Positions 14,938 to 33,547 of a DNA stretch of 64,000 bases are shown here, piece by piece; within the stretch, counting starts at the first letter, position 1; each line of letters starts with the position of its first letter. The notes beneath the pieces are model-generated. The model had not been told where the DNA came from. It ran no database searches and was given only the letters and a program-made list of their open reading frames with translations. The stretch spans positions 1-64,000 of the forward strand of contig RXJQ01000010.1 in the NCBI GenBank assembly GCA_003963115.1, in the 5' to 3' direction. Source of the stretch: Burkholderiales bacterium. Lineage in GTDB: Bacteria; Pseudomonadota; Gammaproteobacteria; Burkholderiales; Burkholderiaceae_C. A program made the translations under genes and the position numbers.

Positions 14938-16545
14938 ATGACCGGCACCACTTCTTCATCGTCCGTCGCGCCCATGCCCCTGCTGGCCGTGCCGGGGCAA
15001 GGCGTTGATCTGCGCACCTGGTTTGCCGTTGCAGCAGGCCTGCTGGGAGCCTTCATGGCCGTGCTGGACATCCAGATCACGAACTCGTCGCTCAAGGACA
15101 TCCTGGGCACCCTGTCGGCAACACAGGAAGAAGGGTCTTGGATCTCGACGGCCTACCTGTGCGCAGAGATTGTCGTGATCCCGCTTACCGGCCTGTTGGC
15201 ACGCGTGCTGGGCCTGCGCAACTACATGGTCGGCACCACAGCCTTGTTCCTCGTTTGCTCGACGCTGTGTGGCGCGGCCTGGAATCTGCCCAGCATGGTG
15301 GTGTTTCGCATGATGCAGGGCTTCACGGGCGGTGCACTGATCCCCATGGCCATGACCTTGGTGATGGCCAAGCTGCCACCGGCCAAGCGCGCCGTGGGCA
15401 TGGCCATGTTCGGCCTCACTGCCACCCTTGCACCGACGTTGGGCCCGACCCTGGGCGGCTACCTGTCCGAGCTGTATGGCTGGCCGTCGATCTTCTACAT
15501 CAACTGGGTGCCCGGCGTGCTGCTGATCACGGGGATCCTGTGGGGGCTGGACGACGAGCGGCGCAACTGGTCGCTGCTGGCCACGGCAGACTGGGTTGGC
15601 ATCGGCTTCATGGCAGTGGGCCTGGGCAGCCTGACCATCTTTCTGGAAGAAGGTAACTCCAAGGATTGGTTCGATTCGAACTTCATCCGCACCTTCGCCA
15701 CGCTGGCCGTGGTGGGCCTGGTCGGCTGGGTGTCCACCAGCGTGCTGCGCAAGGAACCCTTCGTCGACCTGAGCCTTTATCTGCGCCGCAATTTCTTCGT
15801 GGCAGCCACGCTGGCAGCGGTCACCGGCATGGGCTTGTATGGCTCGTCTTTCCTGCTGCCCTTGTTCCTGGGGCAGATCGCCAATTACACACCGATGCAG
15901 ATTGGTGAAGTGATCATGTGGGCGGGCTTGCCTCAGCTCTTCGTCATGCCGATTGCCGCCGCGATGTCATCGCGCGTGGACAACCGCATCATGTGCACGA
16001 TCGGCTTGGCGCTGTTTGGCACATCCTGCCTGATGAACGGCTACATGGATGCTTCGGTGGGCTATGACCAGTTGCTGGTCTCGCAGATCGTGCGGGCGCT
16101 GGGTCAGCCCTTCATCATGCTGACGCTGTCGAACTTTGCGATGGCCGGCATCGGGCCCAAGGAGATGCCGTCTGCATCGAGCCTGTTCAACATGACACGC
16201 AATCTGGGCGGCTCCATCGGCATCGCGATGCTGGCGACCATGCTGACCAATCGCCAGCATTTCCACTCAGCGCGCATTGGCGAGTCGGTGTCGATGCTCT
16301 CGGATGCGACACAGGCCCGCATCGATCAATTGACGCAGGGCTTCATCGCCAACGGCATCAACCCGGCACGGGCCGCAGACCAAGCGGTGGCCATGATCGA
16401 CCGCATCGTGCGTCGCGAGTCCTATGTGATGGCCTACAACGACGGTTTCTTGCTGATGGCCGGGGTGCTGTTTGGCTGCATTGCCGTGCTCTGGTTTGCC
16501 GACAAGGCGGTGTCCCCTTCGGGCGGCGGGGCCGGTGCGCACTGA
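14938..16545 (+). CDS. DHA2-family (EmrB/QacA-type) major facilitator drug exporter
   Basis: 535 aa with the 14-helix DHA2 pattern. It shows the N-terminal FMAVLDIQITNSSL motif, the GALIPMAMTLV region and the antiporter motif C-like APTLGPTLGGYL. It would drive proton-coupled export of hydrophobic drugs through the EmrA-like adaptor and the NodT channel encoded on either side. ATG 14938 has gagagg upstream. Confidence 0.9.
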   Translation: MTGTTSSSSVAPMPLLAVPGQGVDLRTWFAVAAGLLGAFMAVLDIQITNSSLKDILGTLSATQEEGSWISTAYLCAEIVVIPLTGLLARVLGLRNYMVGTTALFLVCSTLCGAAWNLPSMVVFRMMQGFTGGALIPMAMTLVMAKLPPAKRAVGMAMFGLTATLAPTLGPTLGGYLSELYGWPSIFYINWVPGVLLITGILWGLDDERRNWSLLATADWVGIGFMAVGLGSLTIFLEEGNSKDWFDSNFIRTFATLAVVGLVGWVSTSVLRKEPFVDLSLYLRRNFFVAATLAAVTGMGLYGSSFLLPLFLGQIANYTPMQIGEVIMWAGLPQLFVMPIAAAMSSRVDNRIMCTIGLALFGTSCLMNGYMDASVGYDQLLVSQIVRALGQPFIMLTLSNFAMAGIGPKEMPSASSLFNMTRNLGGSIGIAMLATMLTNRQHFHSARIGESVSMLSDATQARIDQLTQGFIANGINPARAADQAVAMIDRIVRRESYVMAYNDGFLLMAGVLFGCIAVLWFADKAVSPSGGGAGAH

Positions 16546-16585
16546 GGCGATGCCCATGAACGCCAGGACAAGATTTGGAGAAAAC

Positions 16586-18082
16586 ATGTTCAAGACCTTG
16601 ACTCGCAGCGTAACCGCTGCCGCCACACTGGCCATGTTGAGCGCCTGCACCACGGTGGGCCATGATTTCGTGGCACCCAAGCCAGAAGCTGCGGCCGCTC
16701 ACTTCCGCCATGCCGAGGCCCAGAGCGGCGAAGCTACGCTGCCGCTGGACAGCTGGACATTGTTTGGCGATGCAACACTCAATGCCCTGGAGTTGCGTGC
16801 GCTGCAAGACAACCCCAACGTCGAGGCGGCGGCCCAACGCCTGATGGAAGCTCAGGCTCAACTGGGTGTGGCCCGCTCTGACCAGGGCGTGAAACTGGGG
16901 GTAGGGGCATCGACGAGTTATTCGCATACCTCGGAGAACACGACGCAGGCGATCATGCTGGGTCGCCACACGATTGAAGGCAGCAACTACGCAATCGATG
17001 CATCGCTGTCCTACGAAGTGGATTTGTGGGGGCGTGTGCGCCGTGCAGTCGAGTCGGCCGATGCGCAAGCCCTGGCGGCTCGGTATGACCGCGATGGGGT
17101 GCTGCTGATGCTGACCCATCAGGTGGCGACCACCTACTTCCAGTTGCGTGGGCTGGACGCCGAGATCGCCATCCTTGAGCGTGCGCTCGATACGCGGCGC
17201 GAGTCTGAGCAACTCGTGTCGGCGCGTTTTGACGGCGGCTTCTCCAATGAGCTGGACCTCGCCCGCACGCGTGTGGAGCGCGCCAATGCCGAAGCAGATT
17301 TGCAGGAGGCCCGGCGCCAGCGCCTGACGTTGGAGCATGGTCTTGCGGTCCTGGTTGGCGCCTCGCCCAACACGCCTTTGCTGGCGGACATGGGGCGCGC
17401 TGCCCACGCCGAGCTGCCCGAGCCACCGGCGATTCCCGTTGGCCTGCCGGCCAGTCTGCTCGCGCAACGGCCGGATCTGGCGTCCAGCGTATCCAATCTG
17501 CGGGCGCTCAACGCACAAGTAGGTGTGGCAGAAGGCGCTTTCTATCCGTCCGTGAACCTCACGGGTGACTATGGGCGGGCATCCGAGCAGTTGCGCGACC
17601 TGACATCGGCCAGCTCCAAGCAATACAGCATCGGGCCGTTGTCGCTGTCCTTGCCCCTGTTCGATGGTGGCCGCAACAAGGCGAACCTGTCGGCCAGCCA
17701 AGCGCGTTATGAGCAGGCAGTGGCCAACCACCAGAACAAGCTGCTGACCGCCTTGCGTGAGGTGGAGGACGCCCTGTCTGATGTGCAGCAGCGACGCTTG
17801 CAGGCTCAGGCCCAGGCGCAAGCCCAGCAGGCAGCAGCACGTGCATACGAAGTCGCAGAGGCCCGCTACGAGCGCGGCGTATCGAGCTATCTGGACGTGA
17901 CCGATGCCCAGCGCAGCAGCCTGGCAGCCGACCGCGCATCTGTGCAGATCCGTACGCAGCGCTTGTTGGCAGCCGTGAATCTGGCGCGCGCCTTGGGTGG
18001 TGGTTGGAGCCCCGAGGCCTCGGCCACATTGGCCAGCAAGTTGCCCGCTAGGCGCAGTGGCGGGCAGGACGACAAGCTCTAA
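16586..18082 (+). CDS. NodT-family outer-membrane efflux lipoprotein
   Basis: 498 aa. The signal peptide ends in the lipobox LSAC, so the mature protein is a lipoprotein. Two outer-membrane efflux (TolC-like) repeats follow, with long Ala/Gln-rich helices and the closing ALGGGW motif. It is the third gene of the efflux operon. ATG 16586 follows ttggag. An upstream ATG at 16551 would spoil the lipoprotein signal. Its stop is 4 bp from the convergent lipoprotein gene at 18087. Confidence 0.88.
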   Translation: MFKTLTRSVTAAATLAMLSACTTVGHDFVAPKPEAAAAHFRHAEAQSGEATLPLDSWTLFGDATLNALELRALQDNPNVEAAAQRLMEAQAQLGVARSDQGVKLGVGASTSYSHTSENTTQAIMLGRHTIEGSNYAIDASLSYEVDLWGRVRRAVESADAQALAARYDRDGVLLMLTHQVATTYFQLRGLDAEIAILERALDTRRESEQLVSARFDGGFSNELDLARTRVERANAEADLQEARRQRLTLEHGLAVLVGASPNTPLLADMGRAAHAELPEPPAIPVGLPASLLAQRPDLASSVSNLRALNAQVGVAEGAFYPSVNLTGDYGRASEQLRDLTSASSKQYSIGPLSLSLPLFDGGRNKANLSASQARYEQAVANHQNKLLTALREVEDALSDVQQRRLQAQAQAQAQQAAARAYEVAEARYERGVSSYLDVTDAQRSSLAADRASVQIRTQRLLAAVNLARALGGGWSPEASATLASKLPARRSGGQDDKL

Positions 18083-18086
18083 GCCA

Positions 18087-18638
18087 CTATGGCTTGCTTT
18101 GACCTGGGTTCACGTACTTGAGCTTGCTGTAGCGCCAGGCCTCGCACACCAGCCCCTCGAACTCGCCGCCCTCCTCCACCTTGCGCCATTCGCACTGTGG
18201 CGCCTGGACCTTGCCTTCCGAGTCCATCACGGCGTTGGCGATGTCCTTGGATGTGTGCGGCAGCGTGACCAGCACAACGTCACCCACCTTGAGCTTTTGC
18301 GCCTTGGGCAAGGTCACGATCCAGCTCACTTCCCGATCGGGGGCGCGGGCGATTTCCAGCGTGGCGACCTCGATTTTGTCTCGGATCATGGCGCAGAAGG
18401 TCTTGTCGACGGTGCAGGGCGCGATGCGCTCGTACAGTGTCCACGGTTCGAGCTTCTTGATTCGACCAGGCACCCGGATATCGGCAAACGCGTCCCAGTT
18501 GTCGACCATGCCTTGAGGTGGCTTGAAGCTCATGGCGGAGGCTTTTGCGGCCATGGCGCCGTTGCTGAATGGGGTGCAGGCCGACAAGGCCATCAGCATG
18601 CCGGCGAGGGCACGCGCTGCGATGCGGTTGAAGTGCAT
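18087..18638 (-). CDS. Putative lipoprotein, unknown function (183 aa)
   Basis: The signal peptide ends in LSAC (Cys21), giving a lipoprotein. The mature part has four further cysteines, in CTVDKTFC and at QCEW and VCEAW, so disulphides are likely. The rest looks like a compact beta-rich fold. I do not recognise the family. It converges on the efflux operon and diverges from the EAL gene. No regulatory motif was evident. Confidence 0.65.
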   Translation of the reverse strand: MHFNRIAARALAGMLMALSACTPFSNGAMAAKASAMSFKPPQGMVDNWDAFADIRVPGRIKKLEPWTLYERIAPCTVDKTFCAMIRDKIEVATLEIARAPDREVSWIVTLPKAQKLKVGDVVLVTLPHTSKDIANAVMDSEGKVQAPQCEWRKVEEGGEFEGLVCEAWRYSKLKYVNPGQSKP

Positions 18639-18867
18639 GGCGTGAAATGGGCGCGAAGACGCTCGCTTGAAATCTATCTGAGCCCAGTCTGACAGTGAAC
18701 GATTTGCTCTGGACTACGGGTTGTCTCGCTGGTGTCGCCTCATCCCCCGCCCGTTTGAGTGGCGCCATGTGGCTCAAGTTTTGACGGATCTGGCCGAAAC
18801 GCGCATGTGGGTGACCCGTCAAGGCACAACGTGGTGCTCAGGCGCAGTTCGCCCGACGAAGGTACTC

Positions 18868-20148
18868 ATGCTCGCGAAAACCCGCCGTCTGGCGCAGTTA
18901 CAGGCTCAGTTGAACGTGTCCAACGGCAGGACAACGAGCAACATGGCTGGCCTGACCTTGTCCTCTCATTTCCAGCCGATCTACAGCCTGTCGCATTCAC
19001 GGGTGGTCGGGCAGGAGGCGCTGCTGAGAGCGCACGATGCCGGCGGTCAGCCGGTTGCGCCGCCGCAGGTCTTTGCCAGGTGTAAAACGCCCGAAGAGCT
19101 GGGCTGGTGCGACAGCCTCAGCCGCGTGATGCACATGGCCAATTTCGCCGCCGTGATGCCGCCTGCGCAGTGGCTTTTCCTCAACGTGCACCCAGACACC
19201 TCGCAGTTGCTCTTTCGCAAGGAAGGGCAGGAATATGTTCGCGAGGTGCTGTCGCATGTCGGGCTGACGGCCGATCGCATCGTGCTGGAGGTGCTGGAAA
19301 GCGCGGTGGAGGACGCAAGCGAGCTGGAGGAGTCGGTGACAACCGTGCGTGAGCAGGGTTGCCTGATCGCCATTGACGACTTCGGCGCCGGGCACTCCAA
19401 TTTCGACCGCGTCTGGCGGCTCAAGCCCGACATCGTCAAGCTGGACCGCAGCCTGGTGGCGCGAGCCGCTCGCGATGGCCGCTCCAGACGGGTGGTGGCC
19501 CAGATGGTGGCCCTGTTGCATGAGTGCGGCGCCATGGTCTTGCTCGAAGGCGTGGAGACGCTGGACGAGGCCTTGCTGGCCATGGAGGCCGATGCCGACA
19601 TGGTGCAAGGCTACTTCTTTGCCAGGCCACAGGCTGATCTGGTGCCTTCTGGCCATTGCCCAGACAATCTGGCTGGGCTGCATGCAGGCTTTCAGAACAT
19701 GCGCCAGGCTCAGCAGCGCGACAGGCAGGAGATGCTGGCGCCTTACCGCAATGCCATTGGCCACGCCGGTGTGAGCTTGAGCATGGGGCATTCGGCGGAG
19801 AGCGCTTGCCACTCCTTCATGAGCTTGCCTGCCACGGAGCTTTGCTATGTGCTGGACGCGCATGGACGCCAGATCGATCAGCCGGTCTGGTCAACACAGC
19901 TGCTGGCGCCCTCCTCTCGCCAGGCCTACACGCCGATGAACGACAGCCACGGTGCGTCATGGGCGCGTCGGCCCTACTTCCGCCGGGCCATTGAAGCGCC
20001 CGGCAAGGTCCAGGTGACGCGTCCCTATCGCACGCTCAATGGCAACCACACGTGCGTGACGGTGTCTTACGGCTTTCATGTACAGACGGGGCAAGGCAAG
20101 GAGACCCGCGTGGTTTGCGGCGACATCATCTGGGATGGCTTGACCTGA
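18868..20148 (+). CDS. Cyclic-di-GMP phosphodiesterase (EAL domain, YkuI-like C-terminus)
   Basis: 426 aa. An N-terminal EAL domain (about 25-260) carries the key residues: EALLRA, LFLNVHP, VLEVLES, IDDFGAG, VKLDRS, LLEGVET and VQGYFFARP. All catalytic metal ligands are present, so c-di-GMP hydrolysis is expected. The C-terminal 160 aa look like the PAS/Cache-like module of YkuI-type proteins and could sense a ligand or dimerise. No membrane helix is seen. The start at 18868 has gaagg upstream; a longer reading from 18721 includes non-conserved sequence. It ends 7 bp from the convergent MocR-type gene. Confidence 0.85.
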   Translation: MLAKTRRLAQLQAQLNVSNGRTTSNMAGLTLSSHFQPIYSLSHSRVVGQEALLRAHDAGGQPVAPPQVFARCKTPEELGWCDSLSRVMHMANFAAVMPPAQWLFLNVHPDTSQLLFRKEGQEYVREVLSHVGLTADRIVLEVLESAVEDASELEESVTTVREQGCLIAIDDFGAGHSNFDRVWRLKPDIVKLDRSLVARAARDGRSRRVVAQMVALLHECGAMVLLEGVETLDEALLAMEADADMVQGYFFARPQADLVPSGHCPDNLAGLHAGFQNMRQAQQRDRQEMLAPYRNAIGHAGVSLSMGHSAESACHSFMSLPATELCYVLDAHGRQIDQPVWSTQLLAPSSRQAYTPMNDSHGASWARRPYFRRAIEAPGKVQVTRPYRTLNGNHTCVTVSYGFHVQTGQGKETRVVCGDIIWDGLT

Positions 20149-20155
20149 GCACAAC

Positions 20156-21550
20156 TCACATCACAGAGGCGTGTACCTGCTCGGGATGGGCCAGTACATC
20201 GGCCACGACGCGCATGCTTTGCTCACATTGAGATGAGGTCACGGGGCCGCCCAGACACAGCCTGACCGCGCGTGGTGGTGATGTATTGGTGGCAAAGGCC
20301 GTGCTGGCCACCGCGGCCACACCGCGTGAGCGCCAGAACGAGGCCGCTTCATTGGGGCTGAGCGTGTCAGGCAATCGCAACCAGGCATGAAAGCAATCTG
20401 GCTGACTCCACACATGCCAGTTGGCCAGATGCCGCTGCAACAAGGCCAGGCGTGCATTGCTTTCGCGGCGGATGGCCTGCACGACGGCCGTGGCCGTGCC
20501 ATCGTTGATCCATTGCGTCCCCAGGGAGACCATGGGCGGCGCGGCCATGACGGTCAACGCGCGCATGGCGCCGGCCACGCGTTGGCTTGCCTGAACCGTG
20601 GGGGCCTGCACATAGGCCACCCGAAGCCCAGCCCCCAGACATTTGGCAAAGCCCGTGACGTAGTAGGTCAGCTCGGGCGCAAGCTCGCTGAGCGTGGTGG
20701 GCCGCTTCTGGGGCAAGGCGCCATAGGCGTCGTCTTCGATGATGGGAATGCTGTAGCGCAGTGCAATGTCCGCCAGCGCTTCGCGCCGGGCCAGGCTGAC
20801 CGTGATCGACGTGGGGTTGAGCATGGTGGGATTGCAATACAAGGCCTTGGGGGCCAGGTGCTTGCAAGCCTCTTCGAAATGCTGAGGACATGGGCCTTCA
20901 TCGTCGACAGGCAGGGCGTGGAGTTTGATGCCCAGTTGGGTGGCCAGAGCCTTGATCCCAGGATAGCTGAGTGACTCGACGCACACGGTATCGCCTGGGC
21001 GGGCCAGCAGGCTGAGCAGACCAGCAAGCACACCGTGGATGCCAGGCGCCACCAGCACGCGATCAGGGGCCCCGCCGCCCATGGTGGCCGTGAGCCAGCG
21101 TGCACCGGCATCGCGATCGGCCGGGTTGCCACCAAAGTCCTGGTAACGCAGTGAAGCCATCAAGCGGCGCGGATCTTCATACAGCTGTCGATAGCCCTGC
21201 GCCATGCGGTCCAGCAGGGCCGGATCATCGGGCTCAGGAGGCAGATTCATGGTCATCTCCGTGGCCGTACCGCCGCGCAAGGGCATGGCGGGCGCGGCGC
21301 TGCGCACGAAGCTTCCCCGCCCTGGGCGGGCGTCTATCTGCCCGCGCTTTTGGGCCTCGGCCAGGCCTCTCGCCACAGTCGTGTAGTTGATCGCCAGTGC
21401 CGCAGCCAGGTCACGTAAGGGCGGCAGGCGATCGCCCGGGCTGAGGCGGCCGCTGGCCAGGTCTTCCGCCAGCAGATCGGGAATCAGGAGATAGGCGGGC
21501 TTGCTGCTTTCTTGCAGACGCTGAGCCCAGTGACGCATGAGGGTGTTCAT
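20156..21550 (-). CDS. MocR-type regulator (GntR winged helix fused to aminotransferase fold)
   Basis: 464 aa. A GntR-type winged helix-turn-helix occupies about 15-80 (LPPLRDLAAALAINYTTVAR, then GRGSFVR). A type-I aminotransferase-like domain follows, with PTMLNPTS, an IIEDDAYG motif and TGFAKCLGAGLRVAY carrying the PLP lysine. MocR proteins bind PLP and an amino-acid-like effector and usually control the divergent operon. Here that is the Nit1C cluster. Two 11-bp direct repeats overlap its start codon, consistent with self-control. An alternative start lies at 21538. Confidence 0.85.
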   Translation of the reverse strand: MNTLMRHWAQRLQESSKPAYLLIPDLLAEDLASGRLSPGDRLPPLRDLAAALAINYTTVARGLAEAQKRGQIDARPGRGSFVRSAAPAMPLRGGTATEMTMNLPPEPDDPALLDRMAQGYRQLYEDPRRLMASLRYQDFGGNPADRDAGARWLTATMGGGAPDRVLVAPGIHGVLAGLLSLLARPGDTVCVESLSYPGIKALATQLGIKLHALPVDDEGPCPQHFEEACKHLAPKALYCNPTMLNPTSITVSLARREALADIALRYSIPIIEDDAYGALPQKRPTTLSELAPELTYYVTGFAKCLGAGLRVAYVQAPTVQASQRVAGAMRALTVMAAPPMVSLGTQWINDGTATAVVQAIRRESNARLALLQRHLANWHVWSQPDCFHAWLRLPDTLSPNEAASFWRSRGVAAVASTAFATNTSPPRAVRLCLGGPVTSSQCEQSMRVVADVLAHPEQVHASVM

Positions 21551-21554
21551 GCCT

Positions 21555-21587
21555 CGATTGATTGCATGAAGTGTGCCGATTGATTGC
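21555..21587. promoter_or_regulatory. Pair of 11-bp direct repeats at the MocR start, probable operator
   Basis: CGATTGATTGC occurs at 21555-21565 and 21577-21587, exactly 22 bp apart (two helical turns). A third TTGATTGC lies at 21764-21771 close to the Nit1C promoter, within CTTGA-TTGCAT-TCAAG. MocR/GabR proteins bind such direct repeats. Confidence 0.55.
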
Positions 21588-21788
21588 TTCCAATGTTGCA
21601 CTCAATGCGTGCGCATGGCGCCGGCCTGGTGCATGGAATGGGCGTGCTTGATGGGCCGTGTGCCCAAAAGGTGCCGCATTGGCAGGTCCGATCTGGAGAC
21701 ATGACGGCCCTGCATGACACCAATGCGGCTTCATCACCAAGGCAAGTTGCGCCTGATCGCATCTTGATTGCATTCAAGTGGCCCGCTT

Positions 21789-21804
21789 TGGCACAAGCGA
21801 TGCA
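21789..21804 (+). promoter_or_regulatory. Sigma-54 (RpoN) promoter of the Nit1C operon
   Basis: TGGCACAAGCGATGCA matches the -24/-12 consensus TGGCACG-N4-TTGCW with the correct 10-nt GG-to-GC spacing and two mismatches. It would start transcription near 21816, about 47 nt before the first ATG. Nitrogen-limitation control by RpoN/NtrC fits a cluster named for its nitrogen-starvation response. Confidence 0.6.
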
Positions 21805-21862
21805 CCAGTCACCACAGCGCGCGCCACTTACTACCCAACCTCTTACCTGTCTGGAGCAACTC

Positions 21863-22345
21863 ATGCCTGCAGTGACAAAAATCCCCAATGAAATCGGCGA
21901 ATTCCTGGTCGACTATGAAGAGAAGGTCTTTGATGACGTGAAGGCCGATCCAGGCGAAAAGGCCCTGGTGACCTTCCACACCGTCGCCTTTGAAGGCTCG
22001 ATCGGTTTCGTCAACTTGCTGCAGGCCACGCGATTGCAGCGCAAGGGCTTCGAGACCTCGGTACTGCTTTACGGGCCTGGCGTGACGCTGGGTGTGAAGC
22101 GCGGCTTTCCAAAGCTGGGTGACGAGGCCTTCCCGGGTCACCAGAACTTCAACAAGCAGATTGCCAAGTTCATCGAAGAGGGCGGCAAGGTCTACGCCTG
22201 TCGCTTTGCCTTGCAGGCCCTGTATGGGCACGGCGAGGGTTCGCTGATCGAAGGCATTCGCCCCATCAACCCACTCGACGTGCTGGACATCATCTTGCTG
22301 CATCGCAAGGAGAAGGCCTTCATCCTCGATACCTGGACGCTGTAA
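21863..22345 (+). CDS. Nit1C cluster protein, MSMEG_0572/Sll0783 family
   Basis: 160 aa, soluble. It belongs to the MSMEG_0572/Sll0783 family, the usual first gene of the nitrilase-1 (Nit1C) cluster. In Synechocystis the homologue is strongly induced by nitrogen starvation. The fold resembles DsrE-like small proteins ([20 protein letters not shown] then LLYGPGV), with one cysteine (YACRFA). Its biochemical role is unknown. ATG 21863 has ggag upstream. The nitrilase gene begins 18 bp after its stop. Seven more family-matched genes follow in the expected order. Confidence 0.9.
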
Positions 22346-22363
22346 GACAAGGCGGGTGCCACC

Positions 22364-23377
22364 ATGAGCCGACAACGCATCATCAAGGCGGCCGCCGTGC
22401 AGCTCTCGCCGGTACTCAACGAGGCCGAAGGGACGCTGCACAAGGTGCTCGATGCCATGGACGAGGCTGCGCGCCAGGGTGTGCAGTTGATCGTCTTCCC
22501 GGAGACTTTCGTCCCCTACTATCCCTACTTTTCGTTCATCCGGGCGCCCATGGCATCGGGTGCCGAGCACATGGCCTTGTACGAGCATGCCGTGGTGGTG
22601 CCAGGGCCGGTCACCGAGGCCGTGTCGCAGCGGGCCCGGCAGCATGGGATGGTGGTGGTGCTGGGGGTCAACGAGCGGGATCACGGCACCATCTACAACA
22701 CCCAGTTGTTCTTCGATGAAACGGGAGCCTTGCGCCTCAAGCGCCGCAAGATCACGCCCACCTTCCATGAGCGCATGGTCTGGGGACAAGGCGATGGCAG
22801 TGGACTCAAGGTCGTGGAAACGGGCGTGGGCCGTGTAGGCGCTCTGGCCTGCTGGGAGCACTACAACCCCCTCGCCCGCTACGCCCTGATGACGCAGCAC
22901 GAGGAGATCCACTGCGCGCAGTTCCCGGGCTCATTGGTGGGCCCCATCTTTGCGGATCAGATGGAGGTGACGATACGCCACCACGCACTGGAGGCGGGCT
23001 GCTTCGTCATCAACAGCACAGGCTGGTTGACAGACGAACAGATTCAATCGATCACGCCGGAGCCTGCCTTGCAGCGTGCGCTGCGTGGCGGGTGCTGCAC
23101 GGCCATCGTCTCGCCCGAAGGTGTTCATTTGGCGCCACCGCTGAAGGAGGGTGAAGGGATGCTGATCGCCGACCTGGACATGAGCCTGGTCATCAAGCGC
23201 AAACGCATGATGGATTCGGTCGGGCACTACGCACGACCTGAGCTGCTCAGCCTCAATCTGGATGACCGGGTGATGGCACCGGTTCATGTCTTCGGCCAGA
23301 CCGGCTCATCTGATGCGTTGGATGAGCCCCCGCATGGTTTCGACTTGCCATCGCCCCCCCTGAGCCGCGTGGCCTGA
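22364..23377 (+). CDS. Nit1-type nitrilase (Nit1C cluster)
   Basis: 337 aa carbon-nitrogen hydrolase with the full catalytic triad Glu47 ([12 protein letters not shown]), Lys129 ([11 protein letters not shown]) and Cys163 ([12 protein letters not shown]). Nitrilases turn nitriles into acids plus ammonia. The Nit1C nitrilase has been linked to bacterial growth on cyanide as nitrogen source in Pseudomonas fluorescens. The natural substrate here is not shown by sequence. It is the second gene of the operon, between the 0572-family protein and the radical SAM enzyme. Confidence 0.92.
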
Positions 23378-23395
23378 ATACGGTAGGAGATTCAC

Positions 23396-24529
23396 ATGAC
23401 ACCTCAAGCTCGTGCACTGATCACTGAATTGCAATCCAAAGGCTTGCGTTTGTTGGACCCCAGTGCAGGCCTGCCCAGCCGGCGTGGCGGTGCAGGCCCG
23501 TCTGATCACAAGGCCGTGACCATCGATGGCCATACGGTCATGGTGCCCGTGCACACGGCGCCTGCCTTCGACTCACCCTTCATGGCCGAGGCACCTGGTA
23601 GCAATGGCATGAGCACCTTGCGTCATGCCAGCATGCCGATTGCCCAGATCAGCTTTCCGGCCACACCCAAGTTCTATGCGTTGAAAACCGCAGAGGGCGT
23701 GCCCTACTCCCACATTGCCACGCTGCATGGCCGTGATGTGCTGGCCACCACGGTGCTGCAGACCTGTGTACGCTACGAGAGCCGCAAGAAGACCTGCCAG
23801 TTCTGCTCGATCGGGCAGTCGCTGGCAGCCGGGCGCACGATTGCGCGCAAGACGCCAGCCCAACTGGCCGAGGTGGCCAAGGCCGCCGTTGAGCTCGATG
23901 CAGTCAAGCACATGGTGCTGACCACTGGCACACCCCCCACACCCGATCGCGGTGCGGCCATCCTGGCCGACAGCGCACGTGCGATCAAGGCCGCAGTACC
24001 TCTGCCTATTCAAGCCCAGTGCGAGCCGCCAGATGACGATGCCTGGTTTCAACGCATGCGCGATGCCGGTGTCGATACCTTGGGCATGCATCTGGAAGCA
24101 GTCACGCCAGAGGTTCGTGCCCGGATCATGCCTGGTAAGGCCAGCGTGCCCTTGTCACGCTATTTCAGCGCGTTCGAGGCGGCAGTCAAGGTGTTTGGCT
24201 TTGGCCAGGTCAGCACCTACATCCTGGCCGGCTTGGGCGACAGCCGCGAAGCGATCCTGGAGATGAGCCGGCACCTCGTGAACATGGGGGTCTACCCCTT
24301 CGTCGTGCCCTTTGTGCCGATCAGCGGTACGCCCCTGGAAGGCCATCCCGCGCCCGACCCGGCCTTCATGCGTTCGGTGCTGGCGCCTCTGGGCGACATG
24401 GTGAGCGCCGCCGGCATGCGCGCCAAGGACATCAAGGCAGGCTGCGGTAAATGCGGCGCGTGCTCATCCTTGTCGGTGTACGAGGACAGTGGCGCCAGCG
24501 CTTCATTGCCCTCACCTGTGCTGGCTTGA
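23396..24529 (+). CDS. Radical SAM protein, MSMEG_0568 family (Nit1C cluster)
   Basis: 377 aa. The cluster-binding cysteines are Cys124, Cys134 and Cys137, a C-x9-C-x2-C spacing instead of the standard C-x3-C-x2-C. The family nevertheless belongs to radical SAM. A C-terminal CGKCGAC could bind a second metal centre. It presumably makes or modifies a small metabolite handled by the cluster; the reaction is unknown. The gene lies 18 bp downstream of the nitrilase. Confidence 0.88.
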   Translation: MTPQARALITELQSKGLRLLDPSAGLPSRRGGAGPSDHKAVTIDGHTVMVPVHTAPAFDSPFMAEAPGSNGMSTLRHASMPIAQISFPATPKFYALKTAEGVPYSHIATLHGRDVLATTVLQTCVRYESRKKTCQFCSIGQSLAAGRTIARKTPAQLAEVAKAAVELDAVKHMVLTTGTPPTPDRGAAILADSARAIKAAVPLPIQAQCEPPDDDAWFQRMRDAGVDTLGMHLEAVTPEVRARIMPGKASVPLSRYFSAFEAAVKVFGFGQVSTYILAGLGDSREAILEMSRHLVNMGVYPFVVPFVPISGTPLEGHPAPDPAFMRSVLAPLGDMVSAAGMRAKDIKAGCGKCGACSSLSVYEDSGASASLPSPVLA

Positions 24530-24543
24530 TGAGGAAACCGACC

Positions 24544-25134
24544 ATGAACGCCTTGACCTTTGCCGAACTGCCGACCACCTTCACGCCGGTCGAGTTTCGT
24601 GTCAAACGCGCTTCTGAAGCCTGGGAGCGTCGGGAAGCACATGCCTTACGCCGAGCGGTTTTCTGCATCGAGCAAGGCATCTTCGTGGGAGATGACCGCG
24701 ACCTCATCGACGAGCAGGCGCAGTTGCTGGTGGCCTGCACGTGCGTCGCAGGTGAATGCGATCAGGTTGTCGGCACGGTGCGCATCTATGAAGCCGAGCC
24801 GCACGTGTGGTGGGGTTCTCGTCTGGCCGTTCACCCTTCGTTCAGGCATGTAGGGCGCTTGGGGGCGACGCTGATCAGGCTGGCCGTCGGCATGGCCCAT
24901 GCCCAGGGTGCGCGCATCTTCTGGGCCCATGTGCAAGAGCAGAACGTGCCGCTGTTTCAAAAGCTCCATTGGGCACTGCATGGTGAGCGCACCCTGCTCG
25001 GTCATGTACATGGTTTGATGACCGCTGATCTGGCCCATTACGCACCGTGCCATCAAGCGGAATGGGGCTACGTGACCTTGGCCGGTTCAGCTCAGCGGGG
25101 CCTGGCTCCAGCTCACGCAGGAGTGGCGTCATGA
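24544..25134 (+). CDS. GNAT N-acetyltransferase, MSMEG_0567 N-terminal family (Nit1C cluster)
   Basis: 196 aa. It has the GNAT fold with RRAVFCIEQGIF near residue 40, a VGTVRIYE strand and LAVHPSFRHVGRLGATLIRLAV as the acetyl-CoA-binding region. In some genomes this domain is fused to the AIR-synthase-like partner; here they are separate but coupled by an ATGA overlap at 25131. The substrate is unknown. Confidence 0.88.
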   Translation: MNALTFAELPTTFTPVEFRVKRASEAWERREAHALRRAVFCIEQGIFVGDDRDLIDEQAQLLVACTCVAGECDQVVGTVRIYEAEPHVWWGSRLAVHPSFRHVGRLGATLIRLAVGMAHAQGARIFWAHVQEQNVPLFQKLHWALHGERTLLGHVHGLMTADLAHYAPCHQAEWGYVTLAGSAQRGLAPAHAGVAS

Positions 25135-26180
25135 GTGCCGATGCGCCTGCCATGTGCCTGGAGGAGTTGGTGCACAGCCTGCGGACGAGCCGTGGCTTCA
25201 CGCACAAGCGGGACATCAGCGCGGTGACGTCCTCGCTGGCTCGTGCACTGCCCGGCGGCTTATCCGACACCACCTTGTGCGCTCAGGACGGCGTGCTGCT
25301 GGGCGATGACTGCGCGGCCATTCCAGATGTGGATGGCTATCTGCTGTTCGCCATCGAGGGGCTGGTGGAAGACTTCGTGGCACAGATGCCGTGGTTTGCC
25401 GGCTACAGCGCCGTGATGGTCAACCTCAGCGACATCGCCGCCATGGGCGGGCGCGCATTGGCGGTGACCGACGCCATCTGGTGTTCAGGCGCAGAGCAGG
25501 CTGAGCCCATCTTGCAAGGCATGGCGGCTGCCGCAAGCAAATATGGCGTGCCGATTGTGGGCGGGCACAGCAACTACCGTGCAAACCGGGGGCAACTGGC
25601 TGTATCGGTGCTGGGCAAGGCCCAGTGCCTTTTGAGCAGCTTTCATGCACGTCCAGGCCAGATCTTGATGATGGCGGTGGACTTGAGAGGCCAGTGGGAA
25701 GGCGCCTACCCCTTCTGGAATGCCTCCACCAAGGCGCCTGCCGAGCGGCTGCGCGGCGACATGGCCTTGCTGCCCGAGATCGCGGAAGACGGCTTGTGCG
25801 CTGCGGCCAAGGACATCAGCATGGCCGGTCTGCTGGGTACGGTGCTGATGTTGATGGAGTGCTCTGGCGTCGGGGCCCGTGTGCTGCTCGATGCCGTGCC
25901 ACATCCGCAAGGTCATGGCCCGGCCGACAACCCACAAGCCTGGTTACGCTGGTTGCAGTCCTTTCCCAGCTATGGCTATGTGCTGTCGGTCGACCCGGTG
26001 CATGTAGCGGAGGTGTCGGCCCGCTTTGGCAGCCGCAGACTGGCCATCGCAACCATCGGCGAAGTGATGGCGGGCTCCGAGGTCTGGGTGATGCAGACGA
26101 ACAAAGGCTCGGCCGTGAAAGAGCAGGCTCTGCTGTGGGACTTTGCTCAATCGCCCTTCATCGCAGCGTTCGCACGCTAG
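25131..26180 (+). CDS. AIR synthase-related protein, Sll0787/MSMEG_0567 C-terminal family (Nit1C cluster)
   Basis: 349 aa. It has the PurM/SelD-like ATP-binding fold: LLGDDCAAI near the N-terminus, VNLSDIAAMGGRALAVTDAIW, GHSNY and a C-terminal AIRS_C half. Family members phosphorylate or cyclise small metabolites with ATP. The target here is unknown. The start overlaps the acetyltransferase stop, so expression is coupled. Confidence 0.88.
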   Translation: MSADAPAMCLEELVHSLRTSRGFTHKRDISAVTSSLARALPGGLSDTTLCAQDGVLLGDDCAAIPDVDGYLLFAIEGLVEDFVAQMPWFAGYSAVMVNLSDIAAMGGRALAVTDAIWCSGAEQAEPILQGMAAAASKYGVPIVGGHSNYRANRGQLAVSVLGKAQCLLSSFHARPGQILMMAVDLRGQWEGAYPFWNASTKAPAERLRGDMALLPEIAEDGLCAAAKDISMAGLLGTVLMLMECSGVGARVLLDAVPHPQGHGPADNPQAWLRWLQSFPSYGYVLSVDPVHVAEVSARFGSRRLAIATIGEVMAGSEVWVMQTNKGSAVKEQALLWDFAQSPFIAAFAR

Positions 26181-26191
26181 GAGGCGATGGC

Positions 26192-27385
26192 ATGAGCGAC
26201 CGTCCCTTGCGCATCGGCTTGCTGATGCACTCCCTCAATCCCCGAGGTGGCGTTGTCCACACCCTGGAGTTGGCTGACGCATTGGTTTCCAAGGGGCATG
26301 AGGTCACGGTATTTGCGGCAGCGCGACATGGCGAGAGATTGTTTCGCGAGACCTTGGCCGAGCTGTCCGTCGCTGCTTTGCCAGCCGATTTGCCCGCGGA
26401 TCTGGTGGCCATGGTGGGGGCGCGGATCGATGCGGTTTATCGCCATCTGCGAGCCTGGCCTGATCTGGTCGATCTGGATGTGCTGCACGCACAGGACAGC
26501 ATCAGCGCCAATGCTTTGGCTCGGTTGTGCGACGAGGGTGCCATCCCAGGCTTTGTGCGCACGGTTCACCATCTGGATGTCTTTGACGAGCCCCAGCTTC
26601 AGGCTTGGCAGACAAAGGGGGTGCACGCTGCATCCAGGCTGTTTTGCGTCAGCGAGCTTTGGCAAGGCGTACTGGCCCGTGACTGGCAGTTGCGCGCCGA
26701 GCGCGTCAGCAATGGGGTGAACCTTCAACGATTCGGCAAGTTGGTGTCGACCGAACAAGCCGTGCGCGATGCGGCCACATGTCGCCAATGGGGCGTTCAG
26801 CCGGAGGGGCCCGTGTGGTTGGCCGTTGGTGGCGTGGAGTCACGCAAGAACACAACAAGGCTGTTGCGGGCCTTTGTGCAGGCACGGGTTCAACGCCCCG
26901 ATGCCCAACTGGTCATTGCGGGTGGTGCCAGCCTGCTGGCGCACGAGGCCGAGGTTCAGGCATTTACCGCCCTGGCCGACCAGCATGGCCTGCTACCAGG
27001 CTTGGACCATTCCGACCGCCTGGTCATCACGGGGCCTTTGCCCGACGATGTCTTGCCCGCCCTGTATCGACGGGCCGATGCCGTGGCCATGCCCTCCCTG
27101 AAAGAAGGTTTCGGCTTGGTGGTGCTGGAAGCACTGGCTTGTGGGACACCTGCCATTGCCTCCCGCATGGCGCCCTTCACCGAGCACCTGGGCCCACAGG
27201 ACGTCTTGTGGGTGGACCCCACCGACCACGATGACATCGCCCGCGCCCTGCTGCTCAGCCTGGATGAGCAGCATGTCCGTCCCGTGCTGGCTCGTGCCGA
27301 CGAGATCTGCGCACGCATGAGCTGGGCGCACAGCGCCCGCCAGCACGAATTCTTCTACCGCCAACAACGTATCCACCATGCCTGA
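26192..27385 (+). CDS. GT4-type glycosyltransferase, MSMEG_0565 family (Nit1C cluster)
   Basis: 397 aa with two Rossmann halves. The N-terminal half begins LRIGLLMHSLNPRGGVVHT. The C-terminal half holds the GT-B motif KEGFGLVVLEALACGTPAIAS with its paired Glu residues. It implies that the product of the cluster is a glycosylated or sugar-derived small molecule. It overlaps the next gene by 8 nt. The ATG at 26192 follows gaggcgatgg. Confidence 0.88.
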   Translation: MSDRPLRIGLLMHSLNPRGGVVHTLELADALVSKGHEVTVFAAARHGERLFRETLAELSVAALPADLPADLVAMVGARIDAVYRHLRAWPDLVDLDVLHAQDSISANALARLCDEGAIPGFVRTVHHLDVFDEPQLQAWQTKGVHAASRLFCVSELWQGVLARDWQLRAERVSNGVNLQRFGKLVSTEQAVRDAATCRQWGVQPEGPVWLAVGGVESRKNTTRLLRAFVQARVQRPDAQLVIAGGASLLAHEAEVQAFTALADQHGLLPGLDHSDRLVITGPLPDDVLPALYRRADAVAMPSLKEGFGLVVLEALACGTPAIASRMAPFTEHLGPQDVLWVDPTDHDDIARALLLSLDEQHVRPVLARADEICARMSWAHSARQHEFFYRQQRIHHA

Positions 27386-27662
27386 AATGCATTTCACCGT
27401 TCGCTGGCCGGACGGGTGCGACCACACCTGCTACTCCCCTTCCCTCGTGGTTCAGGAGCACCTGACGCCCGGCCAAAGCTATGAGATCGAAGACTTCCTG
27501 CAGCGCACGCACGAGGCCTTGTCGATGGCCTCTGAACGCGTGCGGGCCAAGTACGGCTTTGCCTGCTCACGCGCCATGGACCAGTGGGCCGAGATCGAAG
27601 CCCACGCCGAACATTTCCGCCGCCTGCCGGATGCGCAGGTCACCGTGCTCTCCTTCAGCTGA
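27378..27662 (+). CDS. MSMEG_0570 family nitrogen-starvation-response protein (Nit1C cluster)
   Basis: 94 aa soluble protein with MHFTVRWPDG at the N-terminus and a helical middle (FLQRTHEALSMASERVRAKY). The family occurs only in Nit1C-type clusters and has no known activity. It overlaps the glycosyltransferase gene by 8 nt and ends 28 bp before the flavoprotein gene. Confidence 0.88.
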   Translation: MPEMHFTVRWPDGCDHTCYSPSLVVQEHLTPGQSYEIEDFLQRTHEALSMASERVRAKYGFACSRAMDQWAEIEAHAEHFRRLPDAQVTVLSFS

Positions 27663-27690
27663 TGCCCCAGACCCTCGCGAGGAACTTGCC

Positions 27691-29007
27691 ATGTCTCACA
27701 CAACACACCATGACGTCATCATCGTAGGCGGCGGACAGGCTGGCCTGTCGCTGAGCCACTATCTCCAGCAAAGGGGCATTGACCATCTTGTGCTTGAGAA
27801 ACACAGCCCCATGCATGCCTGGCGCACGCAACGCTGGGATGCCTTCTGCCTGGTGACGCCCAACTGGCAATGCAAGCTGCCGGGCCATGAGTACAGCGGA
27901 GCGGATCCGCATGGCTTCATGAAGAAGGACGAGATTGTGGCCTACCTGGATGCCTTTCTCGCCAAGGTGAACCCACCGATGGTGACCGGCGTGACCGTGC
28001 TGCAAGCCAGCCTGCAGGCCGCAGGGCACTACTTTGTCAAGACCAGCGCAGGGGATTTCACGGCCGACCAGGTGGTGGTGGCCTCGGGTGGCTACCACCT
28101 GCCCGTTATTCCCCGTCTGGCTGAGCGCCTGCCCGCTCACATCGTGCAGCTGCATTCCGAACAGTACCGCAGCCCGCAGGCCCTGCCCGATGGTGACGTG
28201 CTGGTCGTTGGATCAGGGCAGTCTGGCGCGCAGATCGCTGAGGATCTGCACCTGGCAGGCAAGCGGGTGCACCTGGCCGTGGGGGATGCGCCAAGGTGCG
28301 CCCGCTTCTACCGTGGACGTGATGTGGTGGACTGGCTGGCCGACATGGGTTACTACGACATGCCGGTGCACGAGCATCCTTTGCGCGAAGGCGTGCGCGA
28401 CAACACCAACCACTATGTGACCGGGCGCGATGGCGGCCGGGATATCGACTTGCGTGCATTTGCCAAACAGGGCATGAAGCTCTATGGCCTGCTGGACAGC
28501 CTGGACCAGGGCGTGCTGCGCTTCAAGGATGGCCTGCGTGCGTCCTTGGAACGCGCAGACCAGACCTATAACGGCATCAATGCCAGCATTGACAAGCACA
28601 TTGCGCAAAGAGGCATTCAGGCGCCCGAACCTTCCGTCTATGAACCGGTGTGGCAGCCTGTCGATGGCGAGGGCGTGGCACTGGACCTCGCTGCCGCCAA
28701 CATCACATCGGTGATCTGGTGCATCGGCTTTCAGCCGGACTTCCGGTGGGTGGACGCGCCGGTCTTCAACGGTCGCGGCCATCCCGTGCACAAGCGTGGT
28801 GTGACGGATCAGCCCGGCTTGTATTTCCTCGGGCTGCCCTGGCTCCACACCTGGGGCTCAGGGCGATTCTCCGGCGTGGCCAGAGATGCCCTCTACCTTG
28901 CCGAGCAGATCGATGCGAGCTTGAATCAGCCCTTGTCGACCGACCAGCTGCCGCCCAATGCCCTGATGAGGCCTACGGTGGACGTGGCCCAGGCCCCACG
29001 CAGCTGA
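27691..29007 (+). CDS. Flavin-dependent oxidoreductase, MSMEG_0569 family (Nit1C cluster)
   Basis: 438 aa. The FAD-binding GGGQAG motif is at the N-terminus (VIIVGGGQAGLSLSHYL). A second dinucleotide motif, VVGSGQSGAQIAEDL, lies near residue 175, as in class B flavin monooxygenases. It is the last Nit1C gene. It ends inside the 3' end of the convergent NodT-type gene: the last 82 bp are shared, so the final 27 residues read antisense to that gene's conserved C-terminus and may not be native. The reaction is unknown. Confidence 0.88.
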   Translation: MSHTTHHDVIIVGGGQAGLSLSHYLQQRGIDHLVLEKHSPMHAWRTQRWDAFCLVTPNWQCKLPGHEYSGADPHGFMKKDEIVAYLDAFLAKVNPPMVTGVTVLQASLQAAGHYFVKTSAGDFTADQVVVASGGYHLPVIPRLAERLPAHIVQLHSEQYRSPQALPDGDVLVVGSGQSGAQIAEDLHLAGKRVHLAVGDAPRCARFYRGRDVVDWLADMGYYDMPVHEHPLREGVRDNTNHYVTGRDGGRDIDLRAFAKQGMKLYGLLDSLDQGVLRFKDGLRASLERADQTYNGINASIDKHIAQRGIQAPEPSVYEPVWQPVDGEGVALDLAAANITSVIWCIGFQPDFRWVDAPVFNGRGHPVHKRGVTDQPGLYFLGLPWLHTWGSGRFSGVARDALYLAEQIDASLNQPLSTDQLPPNALMRPTVDVAQAPRS

Positions 29008-30359
29008 ACGGCCTGTCGTTCGATGGCCAGCAGGCTGCGCTGTGTATCGATGAGGGTCAGGTAGCTGTCCTCACCGGCGCGGTAGCGCTTGTCGGCCAGT
29101 TCGGCCGATCGCCTGGCCGCGACCACGGCTTCGTCGAGCGACTCGCTTTGACCGCGCACTGCGGTCAGGCTGGAAAGCTTGCCTTCGACATCACCGAACG
29201 CGCTCAGGACCGACTGCCGGTAGTCGGCAACCGACTCATCCAGCTGGCCCTCTGCGCGGGCGATGTTAGCACTGTTGCGCCCGCCATCGAACAGCGGCAA
29301 AGACATGACCGCGCTGGTGAGCCACGAGCGGGCGCTCCAGTCGAACAGGTCCTTGAGCTCATACGAAGCATGGCCACCTTGGGCGGTGAGCATCAAGGCG
29401 GGGAAGCGCGCTGAGCGGGCCTGCCCCACCCGTGCAGTGGCCGCCATCATCCGGGCCTGGGCTGCGGCCACGTCGGGGCGGCGCTCCAGCAGGGCCGAGG
29501 GCAAGCCAGCCGGTACCTGTGGCACCAGCACGTCGGACGGCAATGGCTGCGGCGGGAAGCTGAAGGCAGCCGGTGCCTGCCCCAGCAACAAGGCCAGTGC
29601 ATGCTCGGCCAGGGCACGGTCACCCTGCAGGCCTTGAAGCTCCGCCTTGGTGGTGGACCAGTCCGTGCGGGCACGCGTCACGTCCAGCTCGGACACATCG
29701 CCCGCAGCCTTGCGCTTCTCAATCAGGCGCAGCGTCTCTTCGCGCAGCTTGGCCGTGCTTTGCAGCAGCGCCACTTCGGCGTCCAGCGTGCGCAGCTGGA
29801 AGTAGGCCTGGGCCACATCGGCCTGCAAGGTCAGCAGCACCGAGCGGTATGTGGCCTCGGTGGCCTGTGCATCGGCTTCGGCTGCGTTGACGCTGTTGGC
29901 CACGCGCTGGAACAGGTCCACCTCATAGCTGGCACCCAGGCCGGCGTTCCACACCGTGGCAGGTGGAACGCGCGTGTCACTGGCCAGGCCTTGCTGGGCT
30001 GGCGCGTACTTCTGCCGTGTCACGCCCGCGCTCAGGTTCAGCTGCGGCAGGCGGTCTGCACGGTTGACATCCAGCGTGGCCCGGGCCGCCTTGACCCGCG
30101 CGGCGGCGGCCGCCAGGCTCGGGTTGGCGGCCTCGGCTTGCTGTTCTAGCTGGTTGAGCGCGGGGTCATTGAAAGCCTGCCACCATGCACCGCGGGCCTG
30201 GCTTTCGGCAGGTTGTGCGGCCTTCCAGGTGCCTTGCAGGGCGGCCGCTTCCTTGTAGCTGGCCGGTACGTTGATGTTGGCGCTTGGCGGTGGCGGCGCC
30301 GTGGCGCATCCAGCCATCACCAGGGCGACAGCCAAGGTTGAGAGTTTGAACAAGCTCAT
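28926..30359 (-). CDS. NodT-family outer-membrane lipoprotein of an RND efflux pump
   Basis: 477 aa. The signal ends in the lipobox LMAGC, followed by a Pro-rich stretch. Two TolC-like efflux repeats follow with Ala/Gln-rich helices, and the closing ALGGSW motif is present. It is the last gene of the RND operon: its start overlaps the transporter stop by 4 nt. Its 3' 82 bp overlap the convergent flavoprotein gene. Confidence 0.9.
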   Translation of the reverse strand: MSLFKLSTLAVALVMAGCATAPPPPSANINVPASYKEAAALQGTWKAAQPAESQARGAWWQAFNDPALNQLEQQAEAANPSLAAAAARVKAARATLDVNRADRLPQLNLSAGVTRQKYAPAQQGLASDTRVPPATVWNAGLGASYEVDLFQRVANSVNAAEADAQATEATYRSVLLTLQADVAQAYFQLRTLDAEVALLQSTAKLREETLRLIEKRKAAGDVSELDVTRARTDWSTTKAELQGLQGDRALAEHALALLLGQAPAAFSFPPQPLPSDVLVPQVPAGLPSALLERRPDVAAAQARMMAATARVGQARSARFPALMLTAQGGHASYELKDLFDWSARSWLTSAVMSLPLFDGGRNSANIARAEGQLDESVADYRQSVLSAFGDVEGKLSSLTAVRGQSESLDEAVVAARRSAELADKRYRAGEDSYLTLIDTQRSLLAIERQAVQLRGAWATSTVGLIRALGGSWSVDKG

Positions 30360-33300: not shown

Positions 33301-33547
33301 GCGAGGACATGTAGAGCATGTTCTCGGTGCCGTTGATCTGCTCTTCCAGCGGCGCGGCCACGGTTTCGGCCAGCACCTTGGGGTTGGCGCCAGGGAACTG
33401 CGCACGCACCACCACGGAGGGCGGCACGACCTCGGGGTACTCCGAGATCGGCAGGCGGAAGATCGAGATCAGGCCCGCGATGAAGATGAGGATGGACAGC
33501 ACGGCCGCGAAGATCGGCCTGTCCACGAAGGTTCTGGATATGTTCAT
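30356..33547 (-). CDS. HAE1-type RND multidrug efflux transporter (AcrB/MexF-like)
   Basis: 1063 aa, the normal length for an AcrB-type trimeric proton-drug antiporter. The N-terminus reads MNISRTFVDRPIFAAVLS. Transmembrane helix 4 has LAIGIVVDDAIVVVENVER with the paired Asp of the proton relay. Two large periplasmic porter/docking loops are present. It sits in the inner membrane and works with the adaptor upstream and the NodT-type channel downstream. Confidence 0.95.
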   Translation of the reverse strand: MNISRTFVDRPIFAAVLSILIFIAGLISIFRLPISEYPEVVPPSVVVRAQFPGANPKVLAETVAAPLEEQINGTENMLYMSSQSTSDGVLTLTVTFKIGTNVEQAETQVQNRVQRALPRLPEEVRQIGVTTVKSSPNLTLVVHLLSPKGTYDDVYLRNYATLNVKDRLARLAGMGDVQVFGAGDYAMRIWLDPQKVAQRGLTASDVVASIREQNVQVAAGVVGAPPDSRAPFQLSVNASGRLSTEEDFGNIIVRTTPDGGVTHLRDVARIELGSNQYALRSLLNNKPAIGMGIFEAPNANALQLSADVRKTMDELKKDFPADVDYTIVYDPTQFVGDSINAVIKTLVEAVGLVVLVVIVFLQTWRASLIPLLAVPVSIVGTFAVLLGFGFSINTLSLFGLVLAIGIVVDDAIVVVENVERNIANGLSPRDATIQAMKEVSGPIIAIALVLCAVFVPIAYVSGLTGQFYRQFALTIAISTVISAFNSLTLSPALAATLLKPHDAPKDALARGMDWLLGGFFKRFNRVFDRASHGYQSGVRGTLRHKASTMGVYALLCVGAFFVFKQVPSGFVPPQDKQYLVGFAQLPDAASLERTDAVIRRMSDIVKSVPGVKESVAFPGLSINGFTNAPNAGIVFYTLDDFKNRKDPSLSGGAIAAEVNKRLGAIQDAFIMVFPPPSVNGLGTIGGFKLFVEDRANVGYDELYKGVQALQMKAWQTPQLAGVFSSYQINVPQLFADVDRTKAKQMGVPLGSIFDTLQINLGSLYTNDFNKFGRTFQVIAQADAPFRSNAEAISQLKVRSNNGEMVPLGSLMKISDSYGPDRVQRYNAYVAADINGGAAPGVSSGQAQAIMEKIAAETLPKGVSFEWTDLTYQEILAGNTMVYVFPLCVLLVFLVLAAQYESWTLPLAVILIVPMSILCALTGVWLTHGDNNIFTQIALFVLVGLSAKNAILIVEFARELEHHGRSIVDAALEACKLRLRPILMTSIAFIMGVVPLVFSTGAGAEMRHAMGVAVFSGMLGVTLFGLFLTPVFYVLVRLLAKRLEKASGHEPRLVPVELSNEVQS

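Follow-up and report, generated by a model that had tools for sequence, protein, structure and literature searches.

The Nit1C gene cluster is common to distant bacterial groups, and the experimental evidence for its function is confined to cyanide assimilation in Pseudomonas (PMC11049912). The closest described system is that of Pseudomonas pseudoalcaligenes CECT5344, in which, according to two papers (PMC11049912, PMC6368324), the same cluster is accompanied by a divergent regulator gene, as it is here. That regulator, NitA, is a Fis-family sigma-54-dependent activator, and sigma-54 control, which is likewise expected here, is expected there from the type of regulator. At the present locus, by contrast, the divergent gene encodes a MocR-type protein in which a Pfam scan found no AAA+ domain. 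In Mycobacterium smegmatis, a member of the same gene family as the first gene of the cluster, MSMEG_0572, features in nitrogen-starvation work, there in connection with GlnR and not sigma-54.

We propose that the intergenic region at 21551-21862 of the window (the whole stretch of 64,000 nucleotides analysed) is probably a composite sigma-54 promoter with two inputs, in which NtrC/sigma-54 and a PLP-type MocR protein would act on the same DNA loop. A sequence-only reading of this DNA had suggested that RpoN/NtrC control is combined with a PLP-type sensor, and all three types of site that such a combination would use prove to be conserved. The region lies between the divergent MocR-type gene on the minus strand and an eight-gene Nit1C cluster at 21863-29007. 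In a profile scan of the window, the eight named families each score above their curated NCBIfam cut-offs, and the complete Nit1C operon claimed behind the promoter is thus present. The genes are as follows.

20156-21550, minus strand: divergent MocR-type regulator gene, with Pfam PF00392 and PF00155 above their gathering scores
21863-22345, plus strand: MSMEG_0572 family gene, first of Nit1C (TIGR04044, 279 bits against a cut-off of 110)
22364-23377, plus strand: Nit6803-family nitrilase (TIGR04048)
23396-24529, plus strand: radical SAM protein, MSMEG_0568 family (TIGR04043)
24451-25134, plus strand: GNAT acetyltransferase (TIGR04045; the match runs from residue 48, and the true start may be further in)
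25047-26180, plus strand: AIR-synthase-like protein (TIGR04049)
26210-27385, plus strand: GT4 glycosyltransferase, start approximate, within the open frame 25625-27385 (TIGR04047, frame residues 196-579)
27378-27662, plus strand: MSMEG_0570 family gene (TIGR04042)
27481-29007, plus strand: frame of a flavin-dependent oxidoreductase (TIGR04046; the match runs from residue 78, and the start is probably at about 27710)

Nit1C is followed directly, on the minus strand (28926-34870), by genes for an RND efflux system: an outer membrane factor, an AcrB-type pump, and a membrane fusion protein. Past the MocR gene, the plus strand (16472-20148) carries genes for an outer membrane efflux protein and an EAL-domain protein.

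Within the single window, -24/-12-like sites with at most two mismatches are as frequent as chance predicts (59 observed against 58.6 expected), and the count of the box TTGATTGC is not significant (4 against 2.9 expected). We therefore turned to a comparison of 110 loci carrying the first Nit1C gene. Thirty of these, the window included, came from a family search of 299 genomes, 34 of which gave a match above the cut-off; the other 80 are named loci, the best 80 of 491. Removal of 12 near-duplicates left 98 loci: four that are cyanobacterial by record title (L089, L094, L096, and L107) and were excluded from the -24/-12 count, four from Azospirillum and Methylocapsa (L092, L098, L103, and L106), and 90 others, of which the named ones mostly bear the titles of Burkholderiales genera and some are metagenome bins with other labels. 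The Azospirillum/Methylocapsa quartet was separated post hoc when pairs and phasing were counted, the phased pair being absent from it; its members count as misses in the figure of 89/94 given below. A wider set adds 14 loci from 398 genomes of the phylum, although one of them, L161, is the same as L142. The sites in the intergenic region are listed here with their conservation.

21558-21587, plus strand: MocR-side boxes, two copies of TTGATTGC (21558-21565 and 21580-21587) 22 bp apart, adjoining the MocR start codon
21597-21613, plus strand: NtrC-like dyad TGCACTCAATGCGTGCG with GCAC-N7-GTGC intact; aligned dyads are present in Aquabacterium-type relatives
21659-21675, plus strand: second NtrC-like site with a weak left arm; its GGTGC half (21670-21674) is conserved
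21753-21771, plus strand: promoter-proximal tandem CTGATCGC-N3-TTGATTGC, 11 bp spacing, phased in 89/94 non-cyanobacterial loci
21789-21804, plus strand: sigma-54 -24/-12 element TGGCACAAGCGATGCA, matched at a score of at least 16 in 93/94 non-cyanobacterial loci

The element TGGCACAAGCGATGCA keeps the GG-N10-GC spacing and departs once from the consensus, its -12 part being ATGC for TTGC. The 16-mer had been described as an RpoN -24/-12 site with exact spacing; it is indeed present, and it recurs upstream of Nit1C across the relatives. Scores, with weights set by the analyst, were taken within 130 bp of the start codon and set against 30 dinucleotide shuffles and a control stretch 570-700 bp upstream. 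A score of at least 16 is reached in 93/94 non-cyanobacterial loci (top score 19.2), against a shuffle mean of 10.1 and maximum of 16, and 9/94 in the control stretch. At a threshold of 17 the count is 86/94 (shuffle maximum 4; control stretch 7/94), and at 17.5 it is 79/94 (shuffle maximum 3; control stretch 0/94). The strict form TGGCAY-N6-TGC is found in 77/94. None of the four cyanobacterial loci attains 16, the best scoring 14.7. In the wider set, 13/14 loci score at least 17.5; the exceptions to note are L163, which has no -24/-12 match, and L157, which is doubtful. L157 carries three consecutive TTGATYG boxes whose own letters resemble a -24/-12 element, and its best match lies inside these boxes. 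Across the whole genome of the window, the exact pattern TGGCAC-N5-WTGCW occurs 21 times, compared with 8 for the reversed pattern.

When 43 loci are aligned gap-free on the element, information is concentrated in three places: the element itself, the tandem boxes, and a short tract of A and T. The spacers hold almost none, so conservation of the element reflects more than the kinship of long stretches. The tract in these 43 loci, for example L049 and L086, is an A-run followed by a T-run (approximately AAAA-N-TTTT) about 65-74 bases before TGGCAC. It sits between the upstream cassette described below and the promoter pair, and is possibly bent DNA or an UP element; none was seen in the window's own promoter. 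That the -24/-12 match is due to chance, with transcription coming from another promoter, is highly improbable. The chance-level frequency of such matches in the window would fit this explanation, but the element is found in 93/94 loci between unconserved flanks, keeps a fixed phase with the boxes, and is absent in the four cyanobacterial loci. Transcription of Nit1C is expected to start near 21815.

The regulator gene at 20156-21550 encodes a GntR helix-turn-helix joined to an aminotransferase-like domain, the architecture of the MocR subfamily, in keeping with its earlier description as a divergent MocR regulator. The 0572 gene is preceded by a divergent MocR homologue in 103/110 loci, and 13/14 loci of the wider set have a MocR homologue upstream. 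The nearest NCBIfam model is EhuR, against which the window protein scores 371 bits and eight other Nit1C MocR proteins 314-443 bits, with a cut-off of 480. Identity with EhuR was rejected, since all nine scanned proteins fall below this cut-off. The strongest PDB sequence matches of the protein are aminotransferases. Taken together, these comparisons lead us to regard it as a separate MocR group linked to Nit1C. Lys304, Asn246, Asp274/275, Tyr277, Arg311, and Arg431 (L032 numbering) are invariant in the 69 full-length proteins aligned, from a total of 91 of which 22 were truncated and excluded, including the window copy (L029); the same PLP-site motifs are visible in the window translation. 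We take these to be the PLP-holding residues of this fold, and infer that the protein binds PLP. Among 13 proteins shown, the helix-turn-helix of the four from Azospirillum and Methylocapsa reads LPxQR and DFTT, whereas most others have LPxLR and NYTT (exceptions are L100 and L110 with DYTT, and L108 with NFTT). This difference may explain the different boxes of that quartet.

The intergenic region contains CGATTGATTGC at 21555 and 21577, confirming the two repeats 22 bp apart that had been noticed at the MocR start. The third repeat, reported beside the promoter, is also there as TTGATTGC at 21764-21771. It is one half of a tandem pair, whose partner CTGATCGC (21753-21760), 11 bp upstream, had been overlooked. 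With at most three mismatches in 16 allowed for the pair, 78 loci have the start of the second box 24-26 bases ahead of the T of TGGCAC, and 11 have it 35-37 bases ahead. None of these 89 loci has the tandem at a position between the two classes, which are one helical turn apart. The phased TTGATYGC pair is absent in 5/94 loci, namely L108 and the Azospirillum/Methylocapsa quartet; two of the quartet, L098 and L106, pass the mismatch limit, but at other positions. The comparison of upstream regions that had been recommended at the outset thus finds both promoter-side elements, -24/-12 and tandem boxes, conserved among relatives. The 5.4 Mb genome contains two matches to the tandem pattern, one in the window and one on contig C70, where reading reveals nothing promoter-like; the reversed control gives no occurrence. 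Boxes comparable to the MocR-side pair appear in an alignment of 14 intergenic regions and in the list of boxes. We propose that the MocR-side boxes serve autoregulation, MocR probably controlling its own gene as well.

The motif is looser in 13 loci of other classes, which we take as alphaproteobacterial and whose boxes we accordingly do not build on: a TTGWNYG box at -48 to -51 is found in 9/13, and the exact 11-bp tandem within 120 bp in 1/13. A box lies across the -12 part in 3/13. In L106, L162, and L167, TGGCACNTTGATTGCA at the -12 element forms a MocR-type box overlapping the -12 part, an arrangement that would suit direct repression there.

The boxes can also be compared with the whereabouts of the regulator gene. 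L036, L044, and L052 lack an adjacent MocR gene yet keep the -24/-12 element and the boxes, L044 with only one perfect proximal box. In each case the genome offers a single close match to MocR (56-58% identity, same strand), which by coordinates alone lies 7.3-7.7 kb downstream of the 0572 gene, at about the expected end of the cluster. L143 and L166 have no boxes. Of the box-free genomes, G388 gives no match to MocR at E 1e-20, and the sole match in G842 has 31% identity. It is very likely that MocR acts at the Nit1C promoter in some capacity. In L166, the start of an AAA+ activator-like gene is found upstream in place of MocR, and repeats resembling CGAAGTCTCGTA/TACGAACTTTCG that precede its -24/-12 match are perhaps sites of that activator. 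In L146 (G169:C40:41000-51000) the 0572 gene is duplicated: the two copies, on the same strand and separated by about 4.2 kb, flank a MocR homologue, and each is preceded by a -24/-12 element.

Two NtrC-like sites had been tentatively proposed in the intergenic region. TGCACTCAATGCGTGCG at 21597-21613 stands, while the site given as 21661-21675 reduces to a half site, GGTGCC at 21670-21675. Its GGTGC column is conserved in an alignment of 14 sequences, with a single exception that reads GGTGG. The Nit1C dyads resemble the NtrC consensus TGCACCAnnnTGGTGCA as quoted in PMC8743547. MocR boxes of the form ATTGATTGCA can themselves score as NtrC dyads, so an intact GTGC arm was required in the dyad test, for which the central element was masked and 15 of 87 loci above 65% identity were removed to leave 72. 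At least one dyad scoring 15 or more, again with analyst-set weights, is present in 55/72 loci (100 shuffles: mean 4.7, maximum 11), and at least two in 30/72 (mean 0.17, maximum 2). GGTGC outside the central element is found in 68/72 loci, against a shuffle mean of 29.4 and maximum of 38. Genome-wide, the exact NtrC pattern is not enriched (20 occurrences against 23 reversed).

The genome of the window contains an RpoN gene and an NtrC gene scoring above the family cut-off, together with three amt genes. At C81:40533, an amt gene has the promoter element TGGCACAGATCCTGCA preceded by the dyads AGCACATTAATGGTGCA and AGCACCTTATTAGTGCG, 51 bp apart; the gene after this promoter is taken to be glnK. 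On C106, the -24/-12 match of the amt gene is weaker (17.2) and its two dyads are separated by 53 bp; the amt gene on C67 has no such dyad pair. The glnK-amtB promoter therefore resembles the Nit1C promoter in having the same form of -24/-12 element with a dyad pair. It differs in the dyad spacing, 51 bp compared with about 56-57 bp in the Nit1C cassette, and in having, as far as inspected, no MocR boxes in the arrangement. NtrC/sigma-54 activation of Nit1C under nitrogen limitation is very probable on this evidence. An activator other than NtrC, encoded elsewhere as a different AAA+ protein and serving the same sigma-54 and MocR control, is rather unlikely. Its appeal is that several further NtrC-like AAA+ matches occur in the window's own genome, and that Pseudomonas Nit1C is described as having its own activator, NitA (PMC11049912). 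However, no NtrC-like gene was detected at E 1e-15 in the Nit1C loci with flanks of 1.5 to 4 kb (a scan of the loci other than L154-L167), and the enriched dyads fit the consensus quoted in PMC8743547 and stand equally before glnK-amtB.

Upstream of the promoter, 70 of the 89 loci with a phased tandem contain a second pair of boxes with 13-bp spacing, typically TTGATYGG-GTGCA-TTGATYGC. GTGC, which corresponds to the right arm of an NtrC dyad, lies 27-29 bp before the second box of this pair in 66/70 loci, and RGTGC follows it at 26-28 bp in 60/70; both half-sites are present in 56/70, with the offset windows chosen after a first look at the data. Measured from this cassette pair, the promoter pair lies at a distance of 98-101 bp in 7 loci, 109-111 in 8, 118-119 in 6, 127-130 in 41, 139-140 in 3, and 162-163 in 2; three loci fall off the ladder at 113, 114, and 122 bp. 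Steps of about 10 bp are thus favoured (R 0.61 at 10.25 bp over 29 groups), a fit equalled by none of 2000 uniform random sets, kinship being handled only by the collapse to 29 groups. With only the 20 distinct distances, 25/2000 random sets match the fit. The window's own lineage is without the 13-bp cassette pair. Its variant of the cassette is the 22-bp pair at the MocR start, where the CGTGC of the dyad at 21597-21613 follows the box at 21580 by 28 bp, much as the downstream half-site does within the cassette.

Based on these arrangements, the following mechanism can be proposed. Under nitrogen limitation, phosphorylated NtrC would bind the upstream dyads and, via a DNA loop, activate RNA polymerase with sigma-54 waiting at 21789-21804; Nit1C would then be transcribed from about 21815. 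MocR would bind the tandem TTGATYGC boxes beside the promoter, beside the NtrC-like site, and at its own start, with the boxes on a fixed helix face relative to the sigma-54 element, and a PLP-linked ligand would decide through MocR whether the NtrC loop works. In the most specific form of this proposal, which we put forward tentatively, MocR is a ligand-sensing, loop-building partner of NtrC at the sigma-54 promoter, so that both nitrogen limitation and a specific amino compound are needed. The rotational geometry of the loop would be set by MocR dimers occupying the promoter pair and the pair flanked by NtrC half-sites.

Whether MocR helps or hinders NtrC is the point on which the readings divide. 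The net effect of MocR on Nit1C could quite possibly be positive and loop-shaping, in the manner of IHF. Alternatively, MocR may be a plain repressor that blocks NtrC binding or looping until an amino-compound ligand releases it, such that expression of Nit1C requires both a shortage of nitrogen and the presence of the compound; this is a serious possibility, albeit one that falls well short of probable. EnuR, the closest characterised relative and the protein behind the nearest model, is a sigma-70 repressor (PMC8739950), which argues for repression, and so do the placement of boxes within or against the NtrC-like dyads and the overlap of a box with the -12 part in three of the 13 loci taken as alphaproteobacterial. 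Against this, the proximal pair leaves the -24/-12 element free in the 89 phased loci, and simple steric repression has no need of helical phasing, although looping repression would. The phasing favours a part for MocR in loop geometry and fits a helper and a looping repressor alike. We lean slightly to the helper, since activation of the divergent gene is frequent among the MocR proteins characterised so far (PMC5320631).

The sequence-only reading knew of no description of this combination for Nit1C. That holds for the searchable literature, leaving aside Estepa 2012 and the supplementary tables of PMC5320631: no account of MocR at a sigma-54 promoter together with Nit1C was found in the searched titles and abstract openings, or in the available parts of PMC11049912 and PMC5333837. 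No paper dealing with nit1C together with NtrC was found in the literature searched. The main text of the MocR regulon study PMC5320631 does not contain 'nitril', though its supplementary regulon tables could list this MocR group. Nitrilase is likewise unmentioned in the consulted main text of an ntrC RNA-Seq study of Burkholderia cenocepacia (PMC5491218) and of a nitrogen-starvation study of Paraburkholderia phymatum (PMC5748707). A dedicated PLP-type sensor travelling with Nit1C would imply that there is a specific compound to be sought, one that screening ligands against a single MocR protein could identify. The relatives further provide a natural series of near-helical spacing variants in which two unrelated regulators would share one sigma-54 enhancer.

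If MocR is indeed a partner of NtrC, it would be a counterpart of IHF that is switched by a metabolite; within the literature searched, no MocR protein has previously been described at a sigma-54 promoter. In our set, L166 has a NitA-like arrangement and no boxes. Among MocR proteins, EnuR/EhuR of ectoine use shares with the Nit1C protein the MocR architecture, a nitrogen-rich substrate, and the nearest NCBIfam model. EnuR operators, however, are inverted repeats over a sigma-70 promoter and serve repression (PMC8739950), and the Nit1C protein falls below the EhuR cut-off. GabR and TauR, as presented in PMC5320631, resemble the Nit1C regulator in their divergon and direct repeats. Their repeats are two or three helical turns apart, whereas the Nit1C promoter pair is one turn apart and lies beside a sigma-54 element and NtrC-like dyads.
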